NCBI GenBank assembly: GCA_947311115.1
Contig: CAMZKE010000061.1
Coordinates: 1 to 46,596, forward strand
DNA length: 46,596 nucleotides
Source of the DNA: an uncultured Bacteroidales bacterium
Lineage (GTDB): Bacteria > Bacteroidota > Bacteroidia > Bacteroidales > JAFGXI01
Direction: 5' to 3'
Both the position numbers and the translations under genes were made by a program. This document shows, piece by piece, positions 30,093 to 40,181 of the stretch (its first letter is position 1; the number at the start of each line of letters is the position of its first letter). The notes beneath the pieces are model-generated. The model did not search any database. It was not told where the DNA came from and was given only the letters and a program-made list of their open reading frames with translations.

Positions 30093-31847
30093 CTATATTT
30101 CAATCATAAATTTAATTAAATCAGTATCTTGAGCAAGGTTTGTTTTTTTTCTCAAACGGTTTCTTCGTTTATTTACAGCAACACTAGTTATATTTAATAT
30201 TCTTGATATTTCTTTTGAATTAAGATTTATTCTCAAATATGCACATAATTTTAATTCTTCTGTTGTTAAATCAGGATATTTATCTAACAAATTTCTGAAA
30301 AAATCTTGATGTACAGATTCAAAATGAAGTTTAAAAGTTTCCCAATCATCTTCAGTGTTAAACGAGCTTAATATTTCTCTGTTTATTTGTGCTATTATTG
30401 GCACAGCCTCACGACCTCTTTTAACTTTAAGATCATCTAGAGAATTTTTAACCTTTGTTAGTATATCATTTTTATTAATGGCGTGCATTGCTGCAAGAGA
30501 TAACTCACGCTTTTTATGTTCTAATTTTTCTTCTAGGTTCTTTTGATTAAGCTTATCAATTTCTTGTTTTGCTTCCAGTTGTTTTTTTTCTAACAATAAT
30601 TTATTGTTAATATTTTCTTTATTTTCTAGCTCTAATCTTTGTAATTCATTTTCTTGATTATATAAAATAGTTTTTTGTTTTATTGACCTTCGTTGCAAAA
30701 AGACAGTATAGAACAATAGTAATATTAAGCCTAAGAATATGAATAAAATGACTCTATTTCTTAATTTTTTACCTTCTTCAGATTTTATTTTCTCGTTTAA
30801 TAATTCAATTTCATTCTCTTTGAGTTTTATTCTATTCTGAAATTGGATTTCATATATACGTTGTTGTTTAGATTTTTCATAAATAAGATTATTTAATTCA
30901 TTAAAATTTTCGTAATGATTTAATGCTTCTTTAAATAACTGCAATTTTGAGTATGCTTTGTATAAACCTTTTTCGGCATCACGTTTTATTATATACTCTT
31001 GTTCTTTCCCCTTTAAATTACCTTTTAGTGTTTTGTTGTAAAATTCTATTGCTTTATTATAATTAGCTTTCTTTAAAAAATAGTATGCATAACCATTATT
31101 TATAGATATAATTTTTTCTTCATCATCAATTTTATAAAGCAGGTTATTAGATTTTTCTAAATTTTTAAAAGCTAAATCATATTTTCCGGTTTCAATATAT
31201 ACAAATGCAAGGTTATTATAACTAATTGCTAATAATAATGAATCAGAATATTTTTTTGAGATACTTACAGATTTTGTATAGAATTCTATTGCTTTATTAT
31301 ATTCTTTGTTAAAGCGTTTAATTTCTCCAAGATTTATATATGAGATTGCAAGTTTTCGTTCATTTTTTAATGATTTGTATTTTTCTTTAGATTTATTATA
31401 ATAAATATCAGCTTGTTTATAATCTTCATAATCATAATAAATATTACCTATCTGATTATAGGTTCTTGCCATTAACTCAACATTATTGCTTGCCTTTGCC
31501 ACATCTACAGCTTTAAAACAAATTTCAAGAGCAATATCAAAAAATAATTTTCTTTTAAAAATTTTAGCTGTTTTTAAATATTCGAGTATCTTAAATTCGC
31601 TGTCATTACTTTTATCGATAATAGAAATATATTTATAATAGTATTCCTGAGCTTTATTATAATCATCAACTTTTAAATAATACGAAGCTAAATCTAATAA
31701 ATCGCCTGATAATGCTTTTATTTGTGTTTCTGATAACTCGTTATTCATATAATATGATGTATCAGCTAATACCTGTTCGTTAGAGTTAGCATTAATTACG
31801 AAAACACTTGAAAAGAAAATATAAGTTATAAAAAGAATATTTTTCAT
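30093..31847 (-). CDS. Membrane-spanning TPR sensor with C-terminal HTH (regulator 1)
   Basis: A protein of 584 residues if it starts at the ATG at 31847, which gives a clean signal peptide (MKNILFITYIFFSSVFVINA). The upstream ATG at 31874 adds nine residues. TPRs fill about residues 45-320 (KAQEYYYKYI, then YNQIGNIYYDYEDYKQADIY, then SYNNLAFVYIETGKYDLAF). A membrane helix follows near 365-385 (VILFIFLGLILLLFYTVFL), then a coiled coil to about 455, and a LuxR-like HTH at the C-terminus (LTTEELKLCAYLRINLNSKE, then ISRILNITSVAVNKRRNRLR). The topology is periplasmic TPR sensor, cytoplasmic DNA binder. It probably controls nearby T9SS cargo genes; this is inferred from position and shared promoter motifs. 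Confidence 0.85.
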   Translation of the reverse strand: MKNILFITYIFFSSVFVINANSNEQVLADTSYYMNNELSETQIKALSGDLLDLASYYLKVDDYNKAQEYYYKYISIIDKSNDSEFKILEYLKTAKIFKRKLFFDIALEICFKAVDVAKASNNVELMARTYNQIGNIYYDYEDYKQADIYYNKSKEKYKSLKNERKLAISYINLGEIKRFNKEYNKAIEFYTKSVSISKKYSDSLLLAISYNNLAFVYIETGKYDLAFKNLEKSNNLLYKIDDEEKIISINNGYAYYFLKKANYNKAIEFYNKTLKGNLKGKEQEYIIKRDAEKGLYKAYSKLQLFKEALNHYENFNELNNLIYEKSKQQRIYEIQFQNRIKLKENEIELLNEKIKSEEGKKLRNRVILFIFLGLILLLFYTVFLQRRSIKQKTILYNQENELQRLELENKENINNKLLLEKKQLEAKQEIDKLNQKNLEEKLEHKKRELSLAAMHAINKNDILTKVKNSLDDLKVKRGREAVPIIAQINREILSSFNTEDDWETFKLHFESVHQDFFRNLLDKYPDLTTEELKLCAYLRINLNSKEISRILNITSVAVNKRRNRLRKKTNLAQDTDLIKFMIEI

Positions 31848-31928
31848 ATTTGAATAAGTTAATTTGGTAAGCATTATTTTAGCTTATTTTTCTATAAAAT
31901 TACAAAAAAATTATACAATACAATAGGA

Positions 31929-31966
31929 TGTCATTACAAAATCACATTTAGTCCACATTTGTCATA
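31929..31966 (+). promoter_or_regulatory. GTC-type motif cluster upstream of regulator 1
   Basis: GTCATT at 31930, AGTCCAC at 31950 and TTGTCATAC at 31959 have GTC cores 21 and 10 bp apart. Related words in similar phase occur upstream of three other genes of this cluster (33080-33108, 36812-36840, 39063-39090). This is a candidate operator, not proven. Confidence 0.4.
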
Positions 31967-32026
31967 CTATCTTAGTTGTCTTATGAAACTTATCAATATA
32001 GTTGTGCATTCAAATGTAAAACAAAA

Positions 32027-32170
32027 CTAATCTTGCTCTCGAATATGTACTTTTAAATCAGGGATCAAAGAAGGTGATACACTTAATTCATCAATGCCAA
32101 TCTTAGTAAAGGTATCAGTTAATGATTTATTTGCAGCTAATTCACCACAAATATTTATTAGAATCTCATC
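32027..32170 (-). pseudogene. ptsI: 3' remnant of a PTS enzyme I (ptsI) gene
   Basis: Forty-seven codons ending in TAG encode INICGELAANKSLTDTF, then KIGIDELSVSPSLIPDLK. This is the C-terminal PEP-utilising segment of enzyme I, including the active-site Cys in CGELA and the LG-DE-S-S motif. The remaining ~500 codons are absent. The coding match stops at about 32168, where dispersed-element copy 4 begins, so the gene was cut by a deletion or rearrangement at the element. Confidence 0.75.
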
Positions 32171-32254
32171 GCCGCAAGCGAACGAGCTGTCGTTTTGGAA
32201 TACTATTCTTTTATACGTCCCAAAGGACGAGGAATTAAACCCAAACAGATTAAA
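32167..32254 (+). repeat. Dispersed ~85-bp intergenic element, copy 4
   Basis: CATCGCCGCAAGCGAACGAG, a diverged centre, the hairpin CGTCC-CAAA-GGACG (32216-32229), GAGGAATTAAACCC and AAACAGATTAAA. Compared with copy 1 (CGCCC/GGGCG) the stem has changed on both sides, which preserves pairing. Confidence 0.8.
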
Positions 32255-32287
32255 TAAATAGATTTATCTAAAAAATACTATAATAGT

Positions 32288-33022
32288 CTAGTGTCTAACA
32301 ATAATTTTTCTTAATATAGGTGATTGTTCTCCTATATTAAAAGAAATTAGGTACATGCCATTTGGTAAATCTTCTGTACAAATTACTGAATTATTATTAA
32401 TTTCTTTATATGATTTTACCATATTTCCCATTGTATCGTATATATCTAGTTTATATTTTTCGAGTTCAGCAGAAGTATATATCTTTATATAATTACTAAC
32501 AGGATTAGGTCCTATATTAAATGTTAATGAAGGTAATTTACCATCAATAGAAGTTGTAAAATCAACAATCAATTCCACATAACCCAAAAAATTCTGACCA
32601 TCAAGTGAATAATAATACCTGTAAGTCCCCAACCCAGTTGAAGGTGCAACTACATATGTTGCTACACTTATATATTCCCCTCCCGGTATGGTAGTTATAG
32701 AACTATTCTGATATTGATTTTCAGAAGTTACCATACATAAACCTGCATCGCCATTTTTACCAAAACAAAATCTGTTTGACCAATCAGTTGGTTGCTGAAT
32801 AATTTCCCTAGTAATAATCCAAGATTGGTTAGTATCAGTAATATTCTTAAATTCAAAATCGATTATATGATCATTTATAAACATAGAGTTTGGCTCATCT
32901 AGGTTAACTGTGTATGATTGGTTTGTAACAATTACTAAACCGCCATCTAAATAAATCTCTACAGATTGTGAAAACAATAATTGAGACAAAAAGAATGTGA
33001 AAAATATTGAAAAAATTTTCAT
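32288..33022 (-). CDS. Small T9SS type A secreted protein
   Basis: A 244-residue exported protein. A signal peptide (MKIFSIFFTFFLSQLLFSQ) is followed by a beta-rich domain of unknown family (about 22-160, with ITREIIQQPTDWSNRFCFGK and IPGGEYISVATYV). The C-terminal T9SS sorting domain begins near 170 (FNIGPNPVSNYIKIY, then DLPNGMYLISFNIG). The middle resembles an Ig-like or BACON-like fold, but this is a guess. It lies between the two TPR-HTH regulators on the same strand, with a GTC-type motif pair in its promoter region, so one of the regulators probably controls it. Confidence 0.82.
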   Translation of the reverse strand: MKIFSIFFTFFLSQLLFSQSVEIYLDGGLVIVTNQSYTVNLDEPNSMFINDHIIDFEFKNITDTNQSWIITREIIQQPTDWSNRFCFGKNGDAGLCMVTSENQYQNSSITTIPGGEYISVATYVVAPSTGLGTYRYYYSLDGQNFLGYVELIVDFTTSIDGKLPSLTFNIGPNPVSNYIKIYTSAELEKYKLDIYDTMGNMVKSYKEINNNSVICTEDLPNGMYLISFNIGEQSPILRKIIVRH

Positions 33023-33079
33023 AGTTATAATTTTTGTTTAAAAATACACATAAATTATACAACAAGCATAAAATATTAT

Positions 33080-33108
33080 GTGGACAGAATTGATTATTTA
33101 AGTAGACA
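33080..33108 (-). promoter_or_regulatory. GTC-type motif pair upstream of the small T9SS cargo gene
   Basis: On the minus strand, TTGTCTAC and CTGTCCAC have GTC cores exactly 22 bp apart, the same spacing as at 36812-36840. They lie about 60-85 bp upstream of the ATG at 33022, before a TTGTATAAT element also seen upstream of regulator 1 and the 639-residue cargo gene. Confidence 0.45.
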
Positions 33109-33140
33109 ACCACATAGATATAACACGTATTTACTAGCTA

Positions 33141-34808
33141 TTAAGTATTTTTGGTTTTATTTGTTAAAGATTTCACAAATGATGCCACATCCATCTGATC
33201 AAGGTAGTCTTTATGAATATTATTTATGTAAGTTTGAAGCTTTTTATTGCCAATATCTTTTATCTTTAATTTGAGTCTGTATCTAGACTTCCTTACTGTT
33301 GCCATTGAAACGCCAAGCATATTAGCCTGATCAACAGTTTGTATGGATAATACGATAAGAAGTATCATTATACGATCGTTTTCAGTAAGTTTAGGTATTT
33401 TATTATTAATAAATTCTAAGAATCCTGGGTACATTGCCTCAAACAAATTAAAAAAGTGCTTTAAATCTTTTTTTGTTAAGATTAATGATTTTTTTAGAGA
33501 TTCAAGTTTTTGCTGTAACTTATTATTAATATATGATTTAGGAAGTTCTTTTTCAAACTGACGGAGTAACTGATTTTTTTCAATAAGCTGTTGTTTAAAC
33601 TCATATAATTCTAAATGGCTTTTTTCTAATTGTAATTTTGATTTTTCAAATTCTAGTTTTTGTTTTTTTATTTGCTCTTCTTGTTTCGATTTTTTTAATT
33701 TTATTTTCCAATATTTCAATATCAAAAATAATATTATGAATAGAGATACACTTAAAGTTATAAAAATATATTTAATAAAGTTTTGTTCAACAATTTCTTT
33801 TTGAGCTTCGGAAATTACCACCCTTTGTTTTTCTTCTCTTAGTCTGTTATTAACTTCAATTTGTTCAAGAGAATTTATATATTGGTTGTTACTATAAATT
33901 CTATTTAGTGAATCAGCATCTTTTAAATATTTATATGCTAAATCAATTTTATTCAAATCCTCATATAGACTGGAAACTTGTAATGATGTTGTCATTATTA
34001 AATACAAATCGCCAGATTGTTTTGCAAGATTATAGTACTCTTCAATATCTTTAAGCAATGTAGTTTTATTTCCGTAAAGAATATCTAATTCTATTTTCAT
34101 TTCTGCTGCCATTACTATAGAAAGCTTATTATTAGACTTATCACAAATAGCACGGGCAATATTAATATCATTTGCAGCTTCTTTTAATTTACCCAATTTC
34201 ATATAGCAATCGGCTCTATATAATCGTACAATCACTTCATTGTCGCTAAAATTATTTAATTCATAATAATGTAAAGCAGAATCTAATAATTGTTTTGATT
34301 TTGGATATTTTTTTTGATAATTGTAAATAACGGCTAACTCAACATTACCTCTTTGCACTTTACTATTATTCTTAACTTTTTTGGCATGGAGTATTGATTT
34401 GTTAATATGCTCAATGGCTAAAATCATTTGTTCGTGTAACTGAAGTACTTTCGCATAGTACATATGGGCATCAGAATAAACTTCAGAATATTCTATATTA
34501 AACTCGCTTTCAAGACATTTATTAAAATAAGAAAAGGACTTTTCAAAATCGTAAACTTTACTATACAAAATCCCATAATATAATGATGAGCGTATTTTTT
34601 GCTTATTTGTTGTAGAGTTTTGCTCAAACCTTTTAATAAGTACTAATTTTACTTCATATTTAGATGTATCTGCGTCTAAAAAATTAACTATCTCTTGATG
34701 ATATTGCTCTTTAACTAATTCTGAATCTGATAAAGCGCTGATAGTTACCTGTCCTTCAGATTGAAAAGTATAAAAAAGGAATAATATAATTATTTTAGTT
34801 CGAAACAT
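33141..34808 (-). CDS. Membrane-spanning TPR sensor with C-terminal HTH (regulator 2)
   Basis: A 555-residue protein with the same layout as regulator 1. It has a signal peptide (MFRTKIIILFLFYTFQSEGQ), TPRs about 60-320 (GILYSKVYDFEKSFSYFNKC, then ADCYMKLGKLKEAANDINIA), and a membrane helix near 345-368 (YIFITLSVSLFIILFLIL). A coiled coil follows to about 420 (KKSKQEEQIKKQKLEFEKSK), then an HTH near 470-525 (KLTENDRIMILLIVLSIQTV, then ANMLGVSMATVRKSRYRLKL). The two regulators are not close copies, but they share fold order. It is encoded 91 nt after the redoxin-type T9SS cargo gene, with a terminator hairpin between them. Control of the flanking secreted proteins is inferred. Confidence 0.85.
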   Translation of the reverse strand: MFRTKIIILFLFYTFQSEGQVTISALSDSELVKEQYHQEIVNFLDADTSKYEVKLVLIKRFEQNSTTNKQKIRSSLYYGILYSKVYDFEKSFSYFNKCLESEFNIEYSEVYSDAHMYYAKVLQLHEQMILAIEHINKSILHAKKVKNNSKVQRGNVELAVIYNYQKKYPKSKQLLDSALHYYELNNFSDNEVIVRLYRADCYMKLGKLKEAANDINIARAICDKSNNKLSIVMAAEMKIELDILYGNKTTLLKDIEEYYNLAKQSGDLYLIMTTSLQVSSLYEDLNKIDLAYKYLKDADSLNRIYSNNQYINSLEQIEVNNRLREEKQRVVISEAQKEIVEQNFIKYIFITLSVSLFIILFLILKYWKIKLKKSKQEEQIKKQKLEFEKSKLQLEKSHLELYEFKQQLIEKNQLLRQFEKELPKSYINNKLQQKLESLKKSLILTKKDLKHFFNLFEAMYPGFLEFINNKIPKLTENDRIMILLIVLSIQTVDQANMLGVSMATVRKSRYRLKLKIKDIGNKKLQTYINNIHKDYLDQMDVASFVKSLTNKTKNT

Positions 34809-34834
34809 ATTCTCACAAAAATATAAATAACAAA

Positions 34835-34866
34835 GGGAAAGTGCACATTACTTTCCCCTTTTTTAT
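34835..34866. terminator. Hairpin terminator after the redoxin cargo gene
   Basis: The stem GGGAAAGT / ACTTTCCC (34835-34842 and 34850-34857) has a 7-nt loop. The + side exits into C then a long T-run, and the - side into TTTG-TTATTT. It separates the redoxin gene from regulator 2. Confidence 0.75.
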
Positions 34867-34899
34867 TTATTCAAATGTTTTAATTATTATAAGAAAAAA

Positions 34900-36738
34900 T
34901 TATAATTTTATTATAGGTCTGCCTATTCTTACCGAATTAATACCATTAATTACAAAGTAATAAACTCCTTCAGGTAAATTTGATAAATCAATTTTATATT
35001 TATTAGCATTAAGCTGTTTAAATGTAATATTTAAACGCCTACCTGTAATATCTACTGCATATAAAGTTTGATTTTTTATTTCAATAGAGTTTTCGAATTC
35101 CATAATTACATATTCTTTAGATGGATTTGGAAAAATTTTAACACTATTCGTAATATTTTCTTCATTGCCAATAGTTGTAATAACGCAAGCAGTAATAGTT
35201 GGATATGTAAAATATCCAGGATGACCTGCCGGTGTAGGCACATCATGTGAAATTCCGGAATTATCAACATACGATCCCATTTGTTCGGTTACAATATTAT
35301 CCTCATCATCAAGAAATTTAAAACCTGCATAATGTAAATCATCAACATAGCCAGGAATTACGAAACCAGGTTCAATATATTTAATGTTAATATCACTATT
35401 TTTGCAAAATTTTAGGTTATATGTCATTGCTTCTGCCCAGATACCTCCAACCGAATCTCGTACATTTGCATGTAAAGTATAAAATTCTGTTGTGTTTTCT
35501 GATTGAATGCGAACACGAACATCTTCCCATGGATTATTACCTTCAAGTGCAGCAGTATTAGCTTCTGATACGATATTGTGTAAAATTAGCTTATATTCAC
35601 ACGATTCGTTACAGGATGTTCCCACTGTAAAGTCGGTTTCGGCACCCACTACTATATCTGCAGTTTCGTATGCAACTACATTATTACATGAACAACGCAA
35701 CTGAAACCTATACAATCCTGAATATAAACCATGTACAGTAAAAGTATTATTTGTAGTTGTTAATTCTTGAGTTGTATGATATCCCCCTTTAATACCATAT
35801 TTAACAATAATTTCAGGACAATCAGTATCACTTGCCCAAGTTACTTCTACCTGATAAGTTGTATCGCTATCTGGTGCAACATCATACTTAATAATTGCAG
35901 GTTTTAATGTATCACAACCAGTTAAAGAATTTTCGCAAAACATTGTAAAAGGAGTTTCTCCTGGAGATGTTCCATTTAAAGGAACATAATAAAGAGGATT
36001 GTAATTATCGAGAAATTCACCAAGGTTTTCTTCAAGTACATAGTGAAAAGCATTAGGTATCTCATCTTGAAGCGTTTGTAATAGTGTATAACCGGGAAGT
36101 GTTCCTGTACCAACAGTTCCTCCTTCTGCAACCATCATTGAAAAGGCTTGAGTCCAAGCATCCTCATCTCCATTAGGATAATCTGCTGCTCCTAATATTG
36201 TTTTATTAAAAGGTTCAATAATAAATTCGTGAGTTACCCATTGAATTTCATAAAGTGTAAAAACAGCTTCAGAACCTCCATCTGTAGTAATATAATCGGC
36301 TTCAGGAAATACATAATCAATATCTGTTGAAGGCATATCTCCATTTTCACTTGCAAATCCTGCATTTATCCAAAACTGAGGTACAACATCGGCATCTGTA
36401 AATCCATTATCAAATTCAAGAAAAATAATATCTTTAGTATTACAACCGTAATTTCTATAAGCATTATTAAACGCAGGGCGAGCAGCTTCACAACTACCAC
36501 ATCCTACATGACCAAACTTTAAAACAACATATTTGCCATCGTTTAAATAATCATACAAATGATGTTGAACGCCATTCATATCTGTAACTGTAAAGTCGGG
36601 TGCAATATCGCCTTTATTAAGCCCCTGTGCATTACTCAAATTATATGAAAAAATGAGAGCTATAAATATAGGTAAAAAATAGTTTTTAATTTTCGAACTA
36701 AGTAATTTCTTAAATTCAAATTTGATAGGTAAAGTCAT
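34900..36738 (-). CDS. T9SS type A secreted protein with N-terminal redoxin domain
   Basis: A 612-residue protein. An extended n-region and signal peptide (hydrophobic YFLPIFIALIFSYNLSNAQ) lead into a TlpA/AhpC-like redoxin domain (about 38-210): KGDIAPDFTVTDMNGVQHH, then VVLKFGHVGCGSCEAARPAF with an intact CGSC active site. A fibronectin-like region follows (about 270-360, VEVTWASDTDCPEIIVKYG), then a Cys-rich beta region. The C-terminal type A sorting domain begins near 535 (VKIFPNPSKEYVIMEFEN, later LPEGVYYFVING). It would be exported by T9SS to the cell surface or medium as a thiol-active protein. A GTC motif pair and a TATATTTG box lie upstream. It is unusual for a redoxin to carry a T9SS tail, though not unknown. 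Confidence 0.87.
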   Translation of the reverse strand: MTLPIKFEFKKLLSSKIKNYFLPIFIALIFSYNLSNAQGLNKGDIAPDFTVTDMNGVQHHLYDYLNDGKYVVLKFGHVGCGSCEAARPAFNNAYRNYGCNTKDIIFLEFDNGFTDADVVPQFWINAGFASENGDMPSTDIDYVFPEADYITTDGGSEAVFTLYEIQWVTHEFIIEPFNKTILGAADYPNGDEDAWTQAFSMMVAEGGTVGTGTLPGYTLLQTLQDEIPNAFHYVLEENLGEFLDNYNPLYYVPLNGTSPGETPFTMFCENSLTGCDTLKPAIIKYDVAPDSDTTYQVEVTWASDTDCPEIIVKYGIKGGYHTTQELTTTNNTFTVHGLYSGLYRFQLRCSCNNVVAYETADIVVGAETDFTVGTSCNESCEYKLILHNIVSEANTAALEGNNPWEDVRVRIQSENTTEFYTLHANVRDSVGGIWAEAMTYNLKFCKNSDINIKYIEPGFVIPGYVDDLHYAGFKFLDDEDNIVTEQMGSYVDNSGISHDVPTPAGHPGYFTYPTITACVITTIGNEENITNSVKIFPNPSKEYVIMEFENSIEIKNQTLYAVDITGRRLNITFKQLNANKYKIDLSNLPEGVYYFVINGINSVRIGRPIIKL

Positions 36739-36772
36739 GATATTTTTTTTAGTGAAACAATAATTACTTCAA

Positions 36773-36780
36773 CAAATATA
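36773..36780 (-). promoter_or_regulatory. -7 box TATATTTG of the redoxin cargo gene
   Basis: An exact TAnnTTTG match on the minus strand, 34 nt before the ATG. No TTTG is found at -33, which fits activation by a factor bound upstream at 36812-36840. Confidence 0.5.
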
Positions 36781-36811
36781 ATTAAATACAACCTATTTAC
36801 CATTAAAATAC

Positions 36812-36840
36812 GTGGACAGATAAAGCATGCAATATGGACA
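36812..36840 (-). promoter_or_regulatory. GTC-type motif pair upstream of the redoxin cargo gene
   Basis: On the minus strand, TTGTCCAT and CTGTCCAC have GTC cores 22 bp apart. Spacing and order are identical to the pair at 33080-33108. The pair ends about 32 bp upstream of the -7 box. Confidence 0.45.
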
Positions 36841-37003
36841 AACAATACGTATTTTGCTATCAATAAGTGTATTACAATAAAAAATTACAAATAGAGTATA
36901 TTTTTCATCTCTATATAACAAAACAACTATTTACTTGATAGAAAATAATTAATAGTTCATATAAAATTACTATTTGATTAGTAATAATAAACAATTACAA
37001 ACT

Positions 37004-37040
37004 AAAAAAGCCTAATGTCAATAGACAATTAGGCTTTAAA
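37004..37040 (-). terminator. Intrinsic terminator of the Omp28-type cargo gene
   Basis: The stem AAAGCCTAAT / ATTAGGCTTT is extended by GTC/GAC with one bulged A. On the minus strand it exits into six T. It lies about 20 nt past the stop codon. Confidence 0.88.
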
Positions 37041-37057
37041 AAAAACTTTTGATAATA

Positions 37058-38977
37058 TTAAATTATCACAATTTTTTTGGTTATTGATTGATTATTATTA
37101 GAAATATTTATAAAATAGTTACCTTTAGTTAAATCTTTTGTTGAAATAGTCATATTTTTAACATTACCTTCAAGCTTTTCTTGTAAAACAACTTTACCGT
37201 TAATATCAATAATACTTACGGTATAGCCCTCTCCCTCCGTATTAAATTCAACATTTAGAATATCTGATGTAGGATTAGGATAAATATTAGTCTTAATAGT
37301 ATTAACACTTTTTATTCCTGTTTGTAATAGTGCAGTTTCAGCATTAACTATTTCACCATTAGTTTGGTCTATTAAAACAACTACTGCGTGCATATTAGCT
37401 ATATCACTAGTTGTTGGTACAGCGTAATTAAAAGTATATGTTACTTCTTGTCCATCAGCAATAGTAGTTGGAACAGAATTTAGTTGTCCGGAATATCCAC
37501 CAAGTAATGCACGTCCTACATGATTATATTCCATTTGATCAGCAGGAACAGGGTCAGGTAAATTTTCAAAGCCTCCCATAGGCCCATAAGTACCACCTGA
37601 GTAAACATTAGCTTGGTCGTATCCTGAACCGGTTCCGGTAACATGATTTTCTGTTATAATAACACCTAGTCTAAAATTTGCATTAGCAAAATTACTTCTA
37701 AAAATGGCCGAAGTTTCTATTGCTAAATTATTTCCTGTTCCTGATATTGTAGCACTAAGTTGTGCAGGAACATCTAAGCTTTTTTGTTGATTATATAAAG
37801 TCTCAGCATTTTCAACTTCTTCATCAAAAAATGTTCTATCGACATGTATTGATGGTGTTGAAAAATAATCAGAGTTTTCTTCATATTCTGTAACCACCAT
37901 TGGGTCGTAACTTACGTGAACAGCAACCCCAATAAAATCGTCAGGATGAGCTGCTGTCATATTATCCATCATAACTGTACCTCTAGGACATGTTTGACAC
38001 CAAGTACCTGTACCCTCTTCAACCAAAACTCTTTTTTGTGAAGCTTGGCTTATTATATTTATTAAAGCAGAAGCACTGTTTCCTGATGGTTCAGAATCGA
38101 TTACTCCATTTACTTCGGTAATAGTAACAGAAATATTTTTCTCTAGCACACTTGAGTAATTAACTAAAGTAGGATGAGGCACAAATACAGTAGAAAAAGG
38201 AGTAATATTCAGACCTGTAATTACTGATGAATGCGAAGTACCATCATTCCAATCTATTGTTAATGATGTTATATCATTAGCTCCATCATTAGTTACATTA
38301 ACACCTAAAGTATTATCAACATTTGCTAACGAGTACCTGTTTAAAGAAAGGCTCTCTATTGTAGCATTATTGTAAAAAACATGTTCAACAACAACATTAT
38401 CTATTAACAAATTGAATTGTCCGGTGCAATTATAATGACGAAATGTAACATAAACAGTCTGCCCCGAATATGTAGAAATATCAACAACATGAGAAAACAT
38501 TTGCTCGCCGCTTGGTAAGGTTTCTTCAAAAACAGGAGTTGCAGCTTCAATATCAGCAATGGTATTAGATGTAGTTACGTAAACTGCATAATGCTCGGCA
38601 TGTCCACCAGTTGCTTGACCACTTCCTGCATCAAACTTAAGCTTTAAATTACTAGAAGGGGAAGCACCTAAATCAATAGCTGTAGATATTAAAAAATTAT
38701 TAGGGTTTAAATCAACCCAATCAGAAGTAGTGTAGTTATAAGCTTTAGAGTGAGAAACTGCAGCAGCACTATCAGAGCCGGTAACAAAACCGGCATAGGT
38801 ATCTGCGGCATACCACAAATCGTAATCTATACCTGGCGACATTGTTGGGTCACTATCATTATCGATATTTGTCCAACCATCAATATTACCATCATTAAAA
38901 TTATCTGAAAAATAAACTTGTGATTGTGCAAAATATGCACTTAAAAGTATTGCTAAAATTATTATTTTTTTTACCAT
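37058..38977 (-). CDS. T9SS type A secreted protein: choice-of-anchor J plus Omp28 domain
   Basis: A 639-residue protein. A signal peptide (MVKKIIILAILLSAYFAQSQ) is followed by a cleaved-adhesin/choice-of-anchor J beta domain about 22-205 (YFSDNFNDGNIDGWTNIDND, then VTFRHYNCTGQFNLLIDNV). An Omp28-like thioredoxin-fold domain follows about 310-550, with VLVEEGTGTWCQTCPRGT; its CQTC is an intact CxxC. The type A sorting domain runs from about 565 (TNIYPNPTSDILNVEFN, then KDLTKGNYFINISN). Like the redoxin protein downstream, it is a T9SS cargo with a thiol active site. Upstream it has an exact TACTTTTG box and a GTC-type direct repeat. Confidence 0.9.
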   Translation of the reverse strand: MVKKIIILAILLSAYFAQSQVYFSDNFNDGNIDGWTNIDNDSDPTMSPGIDYDLWYAADTYAGFVTGSDSAAAVSHSKAYNYTTSDWVDLNPNNFLISTAIDLGASPSSNLKLKFDAGSGQATGGHAEHYAVYVTTSNTIADIEAATPVFEETLPSGEQMFSHVVDISTYSGQTVYVTFRHYNCTGQFNLLIDNVVVEHVFYNNATIESLSLNRYSLANVDNTLGVNVTNDGANDITSLTIDWNDGTSHSSVITGLNITPFSTVFVPHPTLVNYSSVLEKNISVTITEVNGVIDSEPSGNSASALINIISQASQKRVLVEEGTGTWCQTCPRGTVMMDNMTAAHPDDFIGVAVHVSYDPMVVTEYEENSDYFSTPSIHVDRTFFDEEVENAETLYNQQKSLDVPAQLSATISGTGNNLAIETSAIFRSNFANANFRLGVIITENHVTGTGSGYDQANVYSGGTYGPMGGFENLPDPVPADQMEYNHVGRALLGGYSGQLNSVPTTIADGQEVTYTFNYAVPTTSDIANMHAVVVLIDQTNGEIVNAETALLQTGIKSVNTIKTNIYPNPTSDILNVEFNTEGEGYTVSIIDINGKVVLQEKLEGNVKNMTISTKDLTKGNYFINISNNNQSITKKIVII

Positions 38978-39013
38978 AATTATATATTTAAATTACTCAA
39001 TTTATTTATTATA

Positions 39014-39021
39014 CAAAAGTA
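39014..39021 (-). promoter_or_regulatory. -7 box TACTTTTG of the Omp28-type cargo gene
   Basis: An exact TAnnTTTG match on the minus strand, 36 nt before the ATG. It overlaps the start of the TTGTATAAT word shared with two other promoters of the cluster. Confidence 0.5.
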
Positions 39022-39062
39022 CTCCGGTATTCATATAAGGTCAATAGTTTTTGTATTTAATA

Positions 39063-39090
39063 AGTACACTTGTCATAATTTGTCATAGCT
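39063..39090 (+). promoter_or_regulatory. GTC-type direct repeat upstream of the Omp28-type cargo gene
   Basis: AGTACAC is followed by two 10-bp units TGTCATAATT and TGTCATAGCT, with GTC cores 10 bp apart. It resembles AGTCCACATTTGTCAT upstream of regulator 1. Confidence 0.4.
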
Positions 39091-39695: not shown

Positions 39696-40181
39696 CTATA
39701 AGAATTTTGTTATAGAGTAGCCTAAAAATAGCGACACTGCAAATATTGAAAAATATATGAGTAAATTTTTAAACAACTCATGTTTTTTTTGTTCAACATT
39801 ACGTTCAATACGTGCATAAGCCAATTGAACAGCTGTTTCTAAACGAGTAATTGCCATATGATTTTTGACTATATAATCTTTAACGCCTAAATTCATTAAA
39901 CTAACTGCAGTATCAATGCTTTGCTGACCCGACATTGCTATAATTTCAATATCATATTTAAATTCATTTACCTCTTCAACAACTTTACTGCCTACACCAT
40001 CTTCAAGCATATAGTCTAAAATAATAATACTTGGTTTACTGTCTATGTTTAACAAAAGCTCTTTTATACTAGAAAAGCATTTAATATTATTGAACCCCTG
40101 TTTCTCTAATTTGTTTTTTATTAGTTTTTTAAACATCTCGTCATCTTCTACAATGAAGACTAATACTTCCGATTTTTTCAT
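39696..40181 (-). CDS. Response-regulator receiver domain with C-terminal membrane anchor
   Basis: A 161-residue protein. The receiver fold covers about residues 6-125: acidic pair VEDDEMF near 11-13, phospho-acceptor Asp in IIILDYMLEDG near 56, Ser in IIAMSGQQS near 84, and Lys in VKDYIVKNH near 106. All five key positions are present. There is no DNA-binding or enzyme output domain. Instead a short linker (RIERNVEQKKHELFKN) leads to one hydrophobic helix at the very C-terminus (LLIYFSIFAVSLFLGYSI). A receiver tethered to the membrane by its C-terminus is uncommon. No kinase gene is adjacent. A phosphate sink or membrane-recruiting role is possible but only inferred. Confidence 0.85.
   Translation of the reverse strand: MKKSEVLVFIVEDDEMFKKLIKNKLEKQGFNNIKCFSSIKELLLNIDSKPSIIILDYMLEDGVGSKVVEEVNEFKYDIEIIAMSGQQSIDTAVSLMNLGVKDYIVKNHMAITRLETAVQLAYARIERNVEQKKHELFKNLLIYFSIFAVSLFLGYSITKFL

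Follow-up and report, generated by a model that had tools for sequence, protein, structure and literature searches.

The two TPR-HTH proteins encoded in this stretch of DNA, TPR1 and TPR2, are probably one-component activators of a SusR-like kind that serve T9SS cargo genes specifically, and each has its own private, phased predicted operator. Between positions 30093 and 39090 of the window (the whole stretch analysed, 46,596 nucleotides), five genes are located at the positions given in the original prediction, all on the minus strand. Their description as two TPR-TM-HTH regulators among three T9SS type A cargo genes was borne out by position, by Pfam and by a structure model of TPR1:

30093 to 31874, minus strand: TPR1, a 593-aa regulator with recognition helix SVAVNKRRNRLRKK (Pfam, AlphaFold; topology read from sequence)
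32288 to 33022, minus strand: cargo 3, a 244-aa T9SS type A protein, its gene directly downstream of TPR2
33141 to 34808, minus strand: TPR2, a 555-aa TPR/TM/coiled-coil/HTH regulator with recognition helix MATVRKSRYRLK
34900 to 36738, minus strand: redoxin cargo, 612 aa, with an AhpC-TSA domain (CGSC) and a T9SS type A tail
37058 to 38977, minus strand: Omp28 cargo, 639 aa, cleaved-adhesin and Omp28 domain with CQTC, T9SS type A tail

Domains, regulator-cargo pairing, repeat phasing, helix-operator covariation and microprotein conservation were computed. N-terminal TPRs were found by Pfam in both TPR1 and TPR2, and each protein further has a single hydrophobic helix, a coiled coil and an HTH at the C-terminus. 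The layout of TPR1 is an N-terminal signal or anchor, a periplasmic TPR solenoid, a transmembrane helix, a cytoplasmic coiled coil and a C-terminal LuxR/GerE-type HTH. In its AlphaFold model (mean pLDDT 81), a TPR solenoid is followed by a single long helix and then by a helical domain at the C-terminus, and the C-terminal 170 residues were modelled at a mean pLDDT of 92.5. This C-terminus has the four-helix fold of LuxR-type DNA-binding domains (PF00196 class), and the HTH model matched DosR, a LuxR/NarL-type domain, with Z 8.7 and rmsd 2.1 over 63 residues. Since the GerE (PF00196) score of TPR1 is 18.0, below the Pfam cut-off of 23.5, its HTH is classed from the structure model and from related proteins; TPR2 also scores below this cut-off, and a related regulator, L222, scores 24.5. 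No histidine kinase or receiver domain was found in TPR1 or TPR2 by the Pfam scan, and neither has the make-up of a two-component protein. The three cargo proteins are predicted T9SS type A cargo from their Por_Secre_tail (PF18962) scores of 47.2, 44.1 and 61.5 bits (cut-off 27). The intact thiol sites that had been proposed, CGSC in the redoxin and CQTC in the Omp28 domain, are present, and both domains exceed their Pfam cut-offs (AhpC-TSA, 29.4 bits against 26; Omp28, PF11551, 53.9 bits against 34.9), while cargo 3 has no further recognised Pfam domain besides its tail.

The whole locus was not found conserved in the genus or family, and no plasmid origin was matched. Directly upstream of the cargo cluster, positions 39696 to 40181 encode a stand-alone receiver with a C-terminal hydrophobic helix and without an output domain. 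The intergenic region at about 32020 to 32260 contains what looks like the remaining C-terminal end of a PEP-utilising enzyme (ICGELAANKSLTDTFTKIGIDELSVSPSLIPDLK), and also part of a dispersed repeat (CGTCCGCTTGCGGCGAGG-like) which occurs upstream of other genes in the genome.

The original prediction placed one common GTC operator at four promoters. The spacings were exact: the words stand 22 bp apart within 33080-33109 and within 36812-36841, 10 bp apart within 39071-39086, and 21 and 10 bp apart within 31929-31966. Helically phased predicted operators upstream of -7 boxes were supported. A single shared operator was rejected, because two different words, TGTCCA and ATGACA, are present; we infer that TGTCCA is best assigned to TPR2 and ATGACA to TPR1. 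The predicted elements are:

33080 to 33109, minus strand: predicted operator A of TPR2 (TTGTCTA-N16-TGTCCAC), its half-sites spaced by 22 bp and located at -86 and -64 relative to cargo 3
36812 to 36841, minus strand: predicted operator B of TPR2 (TTGTCCA-N16-TGTCCAC), its half-sites spaced by 22 bp and located at -102 and -80 relative to the redoxin gene
36773 to 36780, minus strand: candidate -7 box for the redoxin gene (TATATTTG), 38 bp past the start of the proximal half-site
39071 to 39086, minus strand: predicted operator of TPR1 (ATGACAAATTATGACA), its half-sites spaced by 10 bp and located at -109 and -99 relative to the Omp28 gene
39014 to 39021, minus strand: candidate -7 box TACTTTTG of the Omp28 gene
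31929 to 31966, no strand assigned: predicted TPR1 autoregulatory operator, ATGACA at -91 and -60, TGGACT at -81, with 10 and 21 bp spacing

The genome-wide search, which the original prediction had named as a possible refutation, did not return a random frequency for either word: there are two exact sites of TTGTCYA-N16-TGTCCAC and three of ATGACA-N4-ATGACA. The former two, the only ones in the 3.5 Mb genome, lie upstream of cargo 3 and the redoxin gene; when two mismatches were allowed, the pattern was not enriched genome-wide (65 matches against 96 in the control). Near-matches at C43:328 and C101:9222 were rejected for lack of supporting gene context. When 105 upstream regions of this genome were compared for shared two-block words, the redoxin/cargo-3 pair ranked 10th of 10,873 pairwise comparisons, and the pairs above it were mostly dispersed repeats. 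The two promoters are 3.7 kb apart and have AATACGT in common, as would be expected if they were copies of a local duplication and uninformative about regulation. Such an origin is very improbable, because the regions align only in two blocks of 7-8 bp (compared in contiguous 32-bp windows, the pair ranked at about 2080 of 10,920) and, the T9SS tail aside, the two genes show no relationship.

The assignment of TGTCCA to TPR2 rests on a class of recognition helices ending in K[SA]RYR, picked after the data had been seen, in which the word occurs in 4 of 5 systems, compared with 4 of 57 others (p 6e-4). The best relative of TPR2 has about 31% identity and no close orthologue was found, so its operators cannot be footprinted. 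The words might be real and have another reader, as TPR2 offers no close orthologue for testing and a 22-bp spacing is generally compatible with either an AraC dimer or a -35/-10 pair; TTGTCYA-N16-TGTCCAC would then be the -35/-10 elements of an ECF sigma factor, or the site of an AraC-type or other regulator encoded elsewhere. This is improbable: the redoxin gene has a distinct TAnnTTTG -7 box 38 bp downstream of the proximal half-site, and cargo 3 has a weaker one 40 bp downstream, the words track the recognition helix of the neighbouring regulator across genomes, and the response regulator encoded next to the cluster (39696-40181) lacks a domain for binding DNA.

The ATGACA-N4-ATGACA pattern, with three sites in the genome and zero in the control, is located in all three cases about 88-109 bp upstream of Omp28-type T9SS cargo genes, one in the window and two on contig C97. 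The first C97 site is at -98/-88 of a 541-aa Omp28 T9SS gene, and the second is at -101/-91 of a gene in which TGA replaces the first cysteine (UPTC) and which resembles Omp28-related selenoproteins (54.3 bits, under the family cut-off of 200). Since the predicted TPR1 targets thus reach another contig, the window is not the self-contained system that had been proposed. The closest relative of TPR1, L097 (JADGDY010000265.1, Bacteroidales bacterium BB22), is 46% identical over the aligned C-terminal half and has a nearly identical recognition helix. It adjoins two divergent Omp28-type genes, and the intergenic region between them contains ATGACA-N4-ATGACA and a second, reversed pair. In G393, the Bacteroidales MAG which contains L097, only the L097 site of this pattern is at an Omp28 gene; two further sites, in C33 inside an ORF and in C3 near an unscanned ORF, were treated as chance.

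The gene order in the window recurs in part. Pairing of a regulator with T9SS cargo was found in other genomes, while the precise series TPR-HTH / redoxin / Omp28 was seen nowhere else. G393 has about 20 or more TPR-HTH regulators, most of them paired with T9SS cargo: the next same-strand gene is a T9SS gene for 15 of the 20 examined (binomial p ~1e-14, with 6.4% T9SS genes as an upper estimate), and at L212 three regulator-cargo pairs stand in tandem. In other genomes of the order, a T9SS gene directly follows in 18 of 36 cases, a rate that is inflated and not a census because these loci were selected with a model built mostly from G393. The pairing holds for 2 of 4 in the genome of the window, for 2 of 17 TPR1-type matches elsewhere (T9SS genes adjoining) and for 0 of 30 in a Flavobacteriia set (T9SS gene directly downstream). 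Omp28, redoxin or thioredoxin domains, some below cut-off, were detected in 9 of the 15 G393 cassette cargos scanned, a scan which omits L227, whose cargo is upstream; thiol motifs are present in many, though not all, cargo proteins of the cassette type.

Direct repeats between regulator and cargo follow a helical period. In the intergenic regions of G393 the pooled Z was 5.5 at lag 11, 2.8/3.2 at 21/22 and 5.8/3.0 at 32/33, and in 28 regions of other genomes, a set leaving out G348 (which resembles G393), it was 5.4, 3.7/3.8 and 4.7/6.7 at the same lags. The 11- and 22-bp peaks were missing in 45 control intergenic regions (-1.1 at lag 11, 2.3/-0.9 at 21/22 and 2.3/2.3 at 32/33). Lag peaks were not clear in the five pooled regions of the window's own genome (lag 22 only 2.1). 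The words themselves vary between cassettes and are common to cassettes with similar recognition helices in different genomes, for example TGTAGCAG in L225, L293 and L295, TTTGTATAGG in L214 and L286, and TGTACAGGT in L302 and L312. At a helix identity of at least 0.7, mean operator-word similarity was 9.17, against 7.22 for the permuted mean (permutation p ~0.0005) and 7.07 for control upstream regions. Since orthology contributes to this covariation, it supports, and does not prove, direct reading of the word by the helix.

These results bear on the simplest explanation, that T9SS genes are so common that two TPR-HTH genes fell among them and that the GTC words are due to chance. The genome does contain 128 T9SS tails, about one per 28 kb, and the loose 22-bp motif has no genome-wide excess. 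However, the pairing in G393 and elsewhere, the uniqueness of the exact motifs, the phasing with its clean control and the covariation of helix and operator have already largely refuted coincidence, which we regard as very unlikely.

Position relative to the promoter argues for activation. The proximal half-site lies 38-55 bp upstream of a TAnnTTTG-like -7 box in 6 of the 8 promoters examined, and is closer at TPR1 and at one L097 gene. The ATGACA array at TPR1, only 21-32 bp from that gene's own -7-like candidate promoter box, would suit proteins that repress their cargo genes or mainly regulate themselves. We consider this unlikely, though it deserves attention, because at the cargo genes the half-site is mostly at 38-55 bp, a typical activator position, and because SusR, the nearest analogue that has been studied, activates its targets (PMC3878776); the same position therefore suggests activation here, as for SusR.

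For TPR1 and TPR2 as activators, we infer DNA binding, activation rather than repression and the assignment of regulators to targets, and the proposed mechanism is as follows. The periplasmic TPR domain would receive a signal, and the cytoplasmic coiled coil and LuxR-type HTH would bind DNA. Each regulator would act on a private operator whose half-sites are direct repeats on one helix face (10-11, 21-22 or 32-33 bp) and which, in most cases, lies some 38-55 bp upstream of the -7 box of a T9SS cargo gene. TPR2 (helix KSRYR) would read TGTCCA/TGTCTA and drive the redoxin cargo and cargo 3, and TPR1 (helix NKRRNRLRKK) would read ATGACA and drive the Omp28 cargo of the window, the two Omp28 cargo genes on C97 and its own gene. 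What the signal might be is a guess that we hold as rather doubtful: the TPR domain may monitor its cognate cargo or the export of that cargo, with a microprotein feeding back on the cytoplasmic coiled coil.

PorX/PorY/SigP is a two-component/ECF system regulating the T9SS machinery in Bacteroidota; it resembles the present case in tying transcriptional control to T9SS, whereas TPR1 and TPR2 are one-component and cargo-specific. SusR (BT3705) and SusR2-4 of Bacteroides are membrane proteins with a periplasmic sensor and a cytoplasmic C-terminal DNA-binding domain, are encoded beside their targets, and have operators whose similarity follows that of the regulators (PMC3878776). TPR1 and TPR2 likewise have a periplasmic sensor, a TM helix and a cytoplasmic C-terminal HTH (Pfam and models, the topology being predicted), and share the neighbouring (here predicted) targets, the direct-repeat predicted operators and the tracking of regulator similarity by operator similarity. 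However, SusR controls glycan uptake operons, its HTH was reported to be unlike those of other known TFs, and the direct repeats in its predicted operators have a spacing of 67 or 77 bp (PMC3878776), whereas the repeats here are 10-11, 21-22 and 32-33 bp apart (lags up to 45 bp scanned), the neighbours in the window are T9SS cargo rather than susC/susD-type glycan uptake genes, the HTH is LuxR-like and many cassettes include a microprotein. TPR1 and TPR2 were not listed at E 0.001 for the SusR family (NCBIfam NF058541, cut-off 480 bits), and a G393 cassette regulator scored 20.1 bits. TPR1 and TPR2 thus relate to SusR in their architecture and in the style of their predicted operators, while the family score, the repeat spacing and the kind of target all speak against membership.

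Members of the BT3442 family (NCBIfam NF053779) are likewise TPR proteins, resemble the window regulators in their C-terminal region and have genes for secreted or surface proteins as neighbours, and BT_3442 neighbours MACPF and other putative lipoproteins (PMC2954219), but the window regulators score only 37.8 and 18.0 bits against a cut-off of 940 and are not members. Flavobacteriia propeller/Y_Y_Y membrane regulators with a GerE-like HTH (L105, L137) have the same C-terminal module of coiled coil and HTH and, as here, 11- and 32-bp phased direct repeats downstream; propeller and Y_Y_Y domains were found in L105. In contrast, the sensor domain is different in the members scanned, and the next gene usually encodes a protein of about 1,000 aa, of SusC-receptor size (by size alone), instead of T9SS cargo. 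Very regular 11-bp repeats (ACCTATACATTACCACAACA type) precede the ~1,000-aa gene at L105, L107 and comparable loci of Flavobacteriia, where the regulators are about 840-890 aa long.

TPR1 and TPR2 are members of a large family of cassettes that pair a regulator with cargo, and many of these cassettes also have a microprotein gene. In most G393 cassettes and in the C101 cassette of the present genome, the regulator-to-cargo gap contains a co-oriented ORF of 42-60 aa with a conserved LKK core. The ORF is absent from the window, where TPR1 and TPR2 pair with cargo without it. No Pfam or NCBIfam match was obtained at E 0.1 and PHROGs matches were at chance level only, so that the family lies outside the curated models of the two former databases. 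With dN/dS of about 0.24 and 0.20 in two orthologue pairs, the microprotein is, as judged from sequence, under purifying selection. A profile matched 32 of 393 genomes of the order and 27 of 206 genera, weak matches included; 24 of 31 matches at E 2e-4 or better are just downstream of a TPR-HTH gene, as are 12 of the 18 outside the profile-building set.

Tentatively, and at a little short of even confidence, we propose that Bacteroidota carry an expandable, undescribed class of insulated surface-display cassettes, each with a TPR membrane regulator, a coiled-coil microprotein as dedicated co-regulator or feedback element, T9SS cargo and a private phased operator set by the recognition helix, in up to about 20 copies per genome. 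A search of the available literature found no paper describing a TPR-HTH/T9SS regulator. If real, such cassettes would be for secretion what polysaccharide utilisation loci are for glycan uptake. If the reading of TPR1 and TPR2 as activators is right, a testable rule follows for the control of individual T9SS cargo genes: the neighbouring regulator would read a visible repeat, regulons would be predictable from recognition helices, and dozens of natural regulator-operator pairs would be available for reading the LuxR-type recognition code.

Two T9SS genes of this genome have an in-frame TGA at the redox cysteine, L325:6881-8800 (G000:C97, Omp28 UPTC) and L083:1992-2897 (G000:C128, redoxin UPTC), which suggests exported selenoproteins. 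No paper describing an Omp28 selenoprotein was found in the literature search. Relatives of the window redoxin in other genomes carry UGSC and UGTC (L041, L053).
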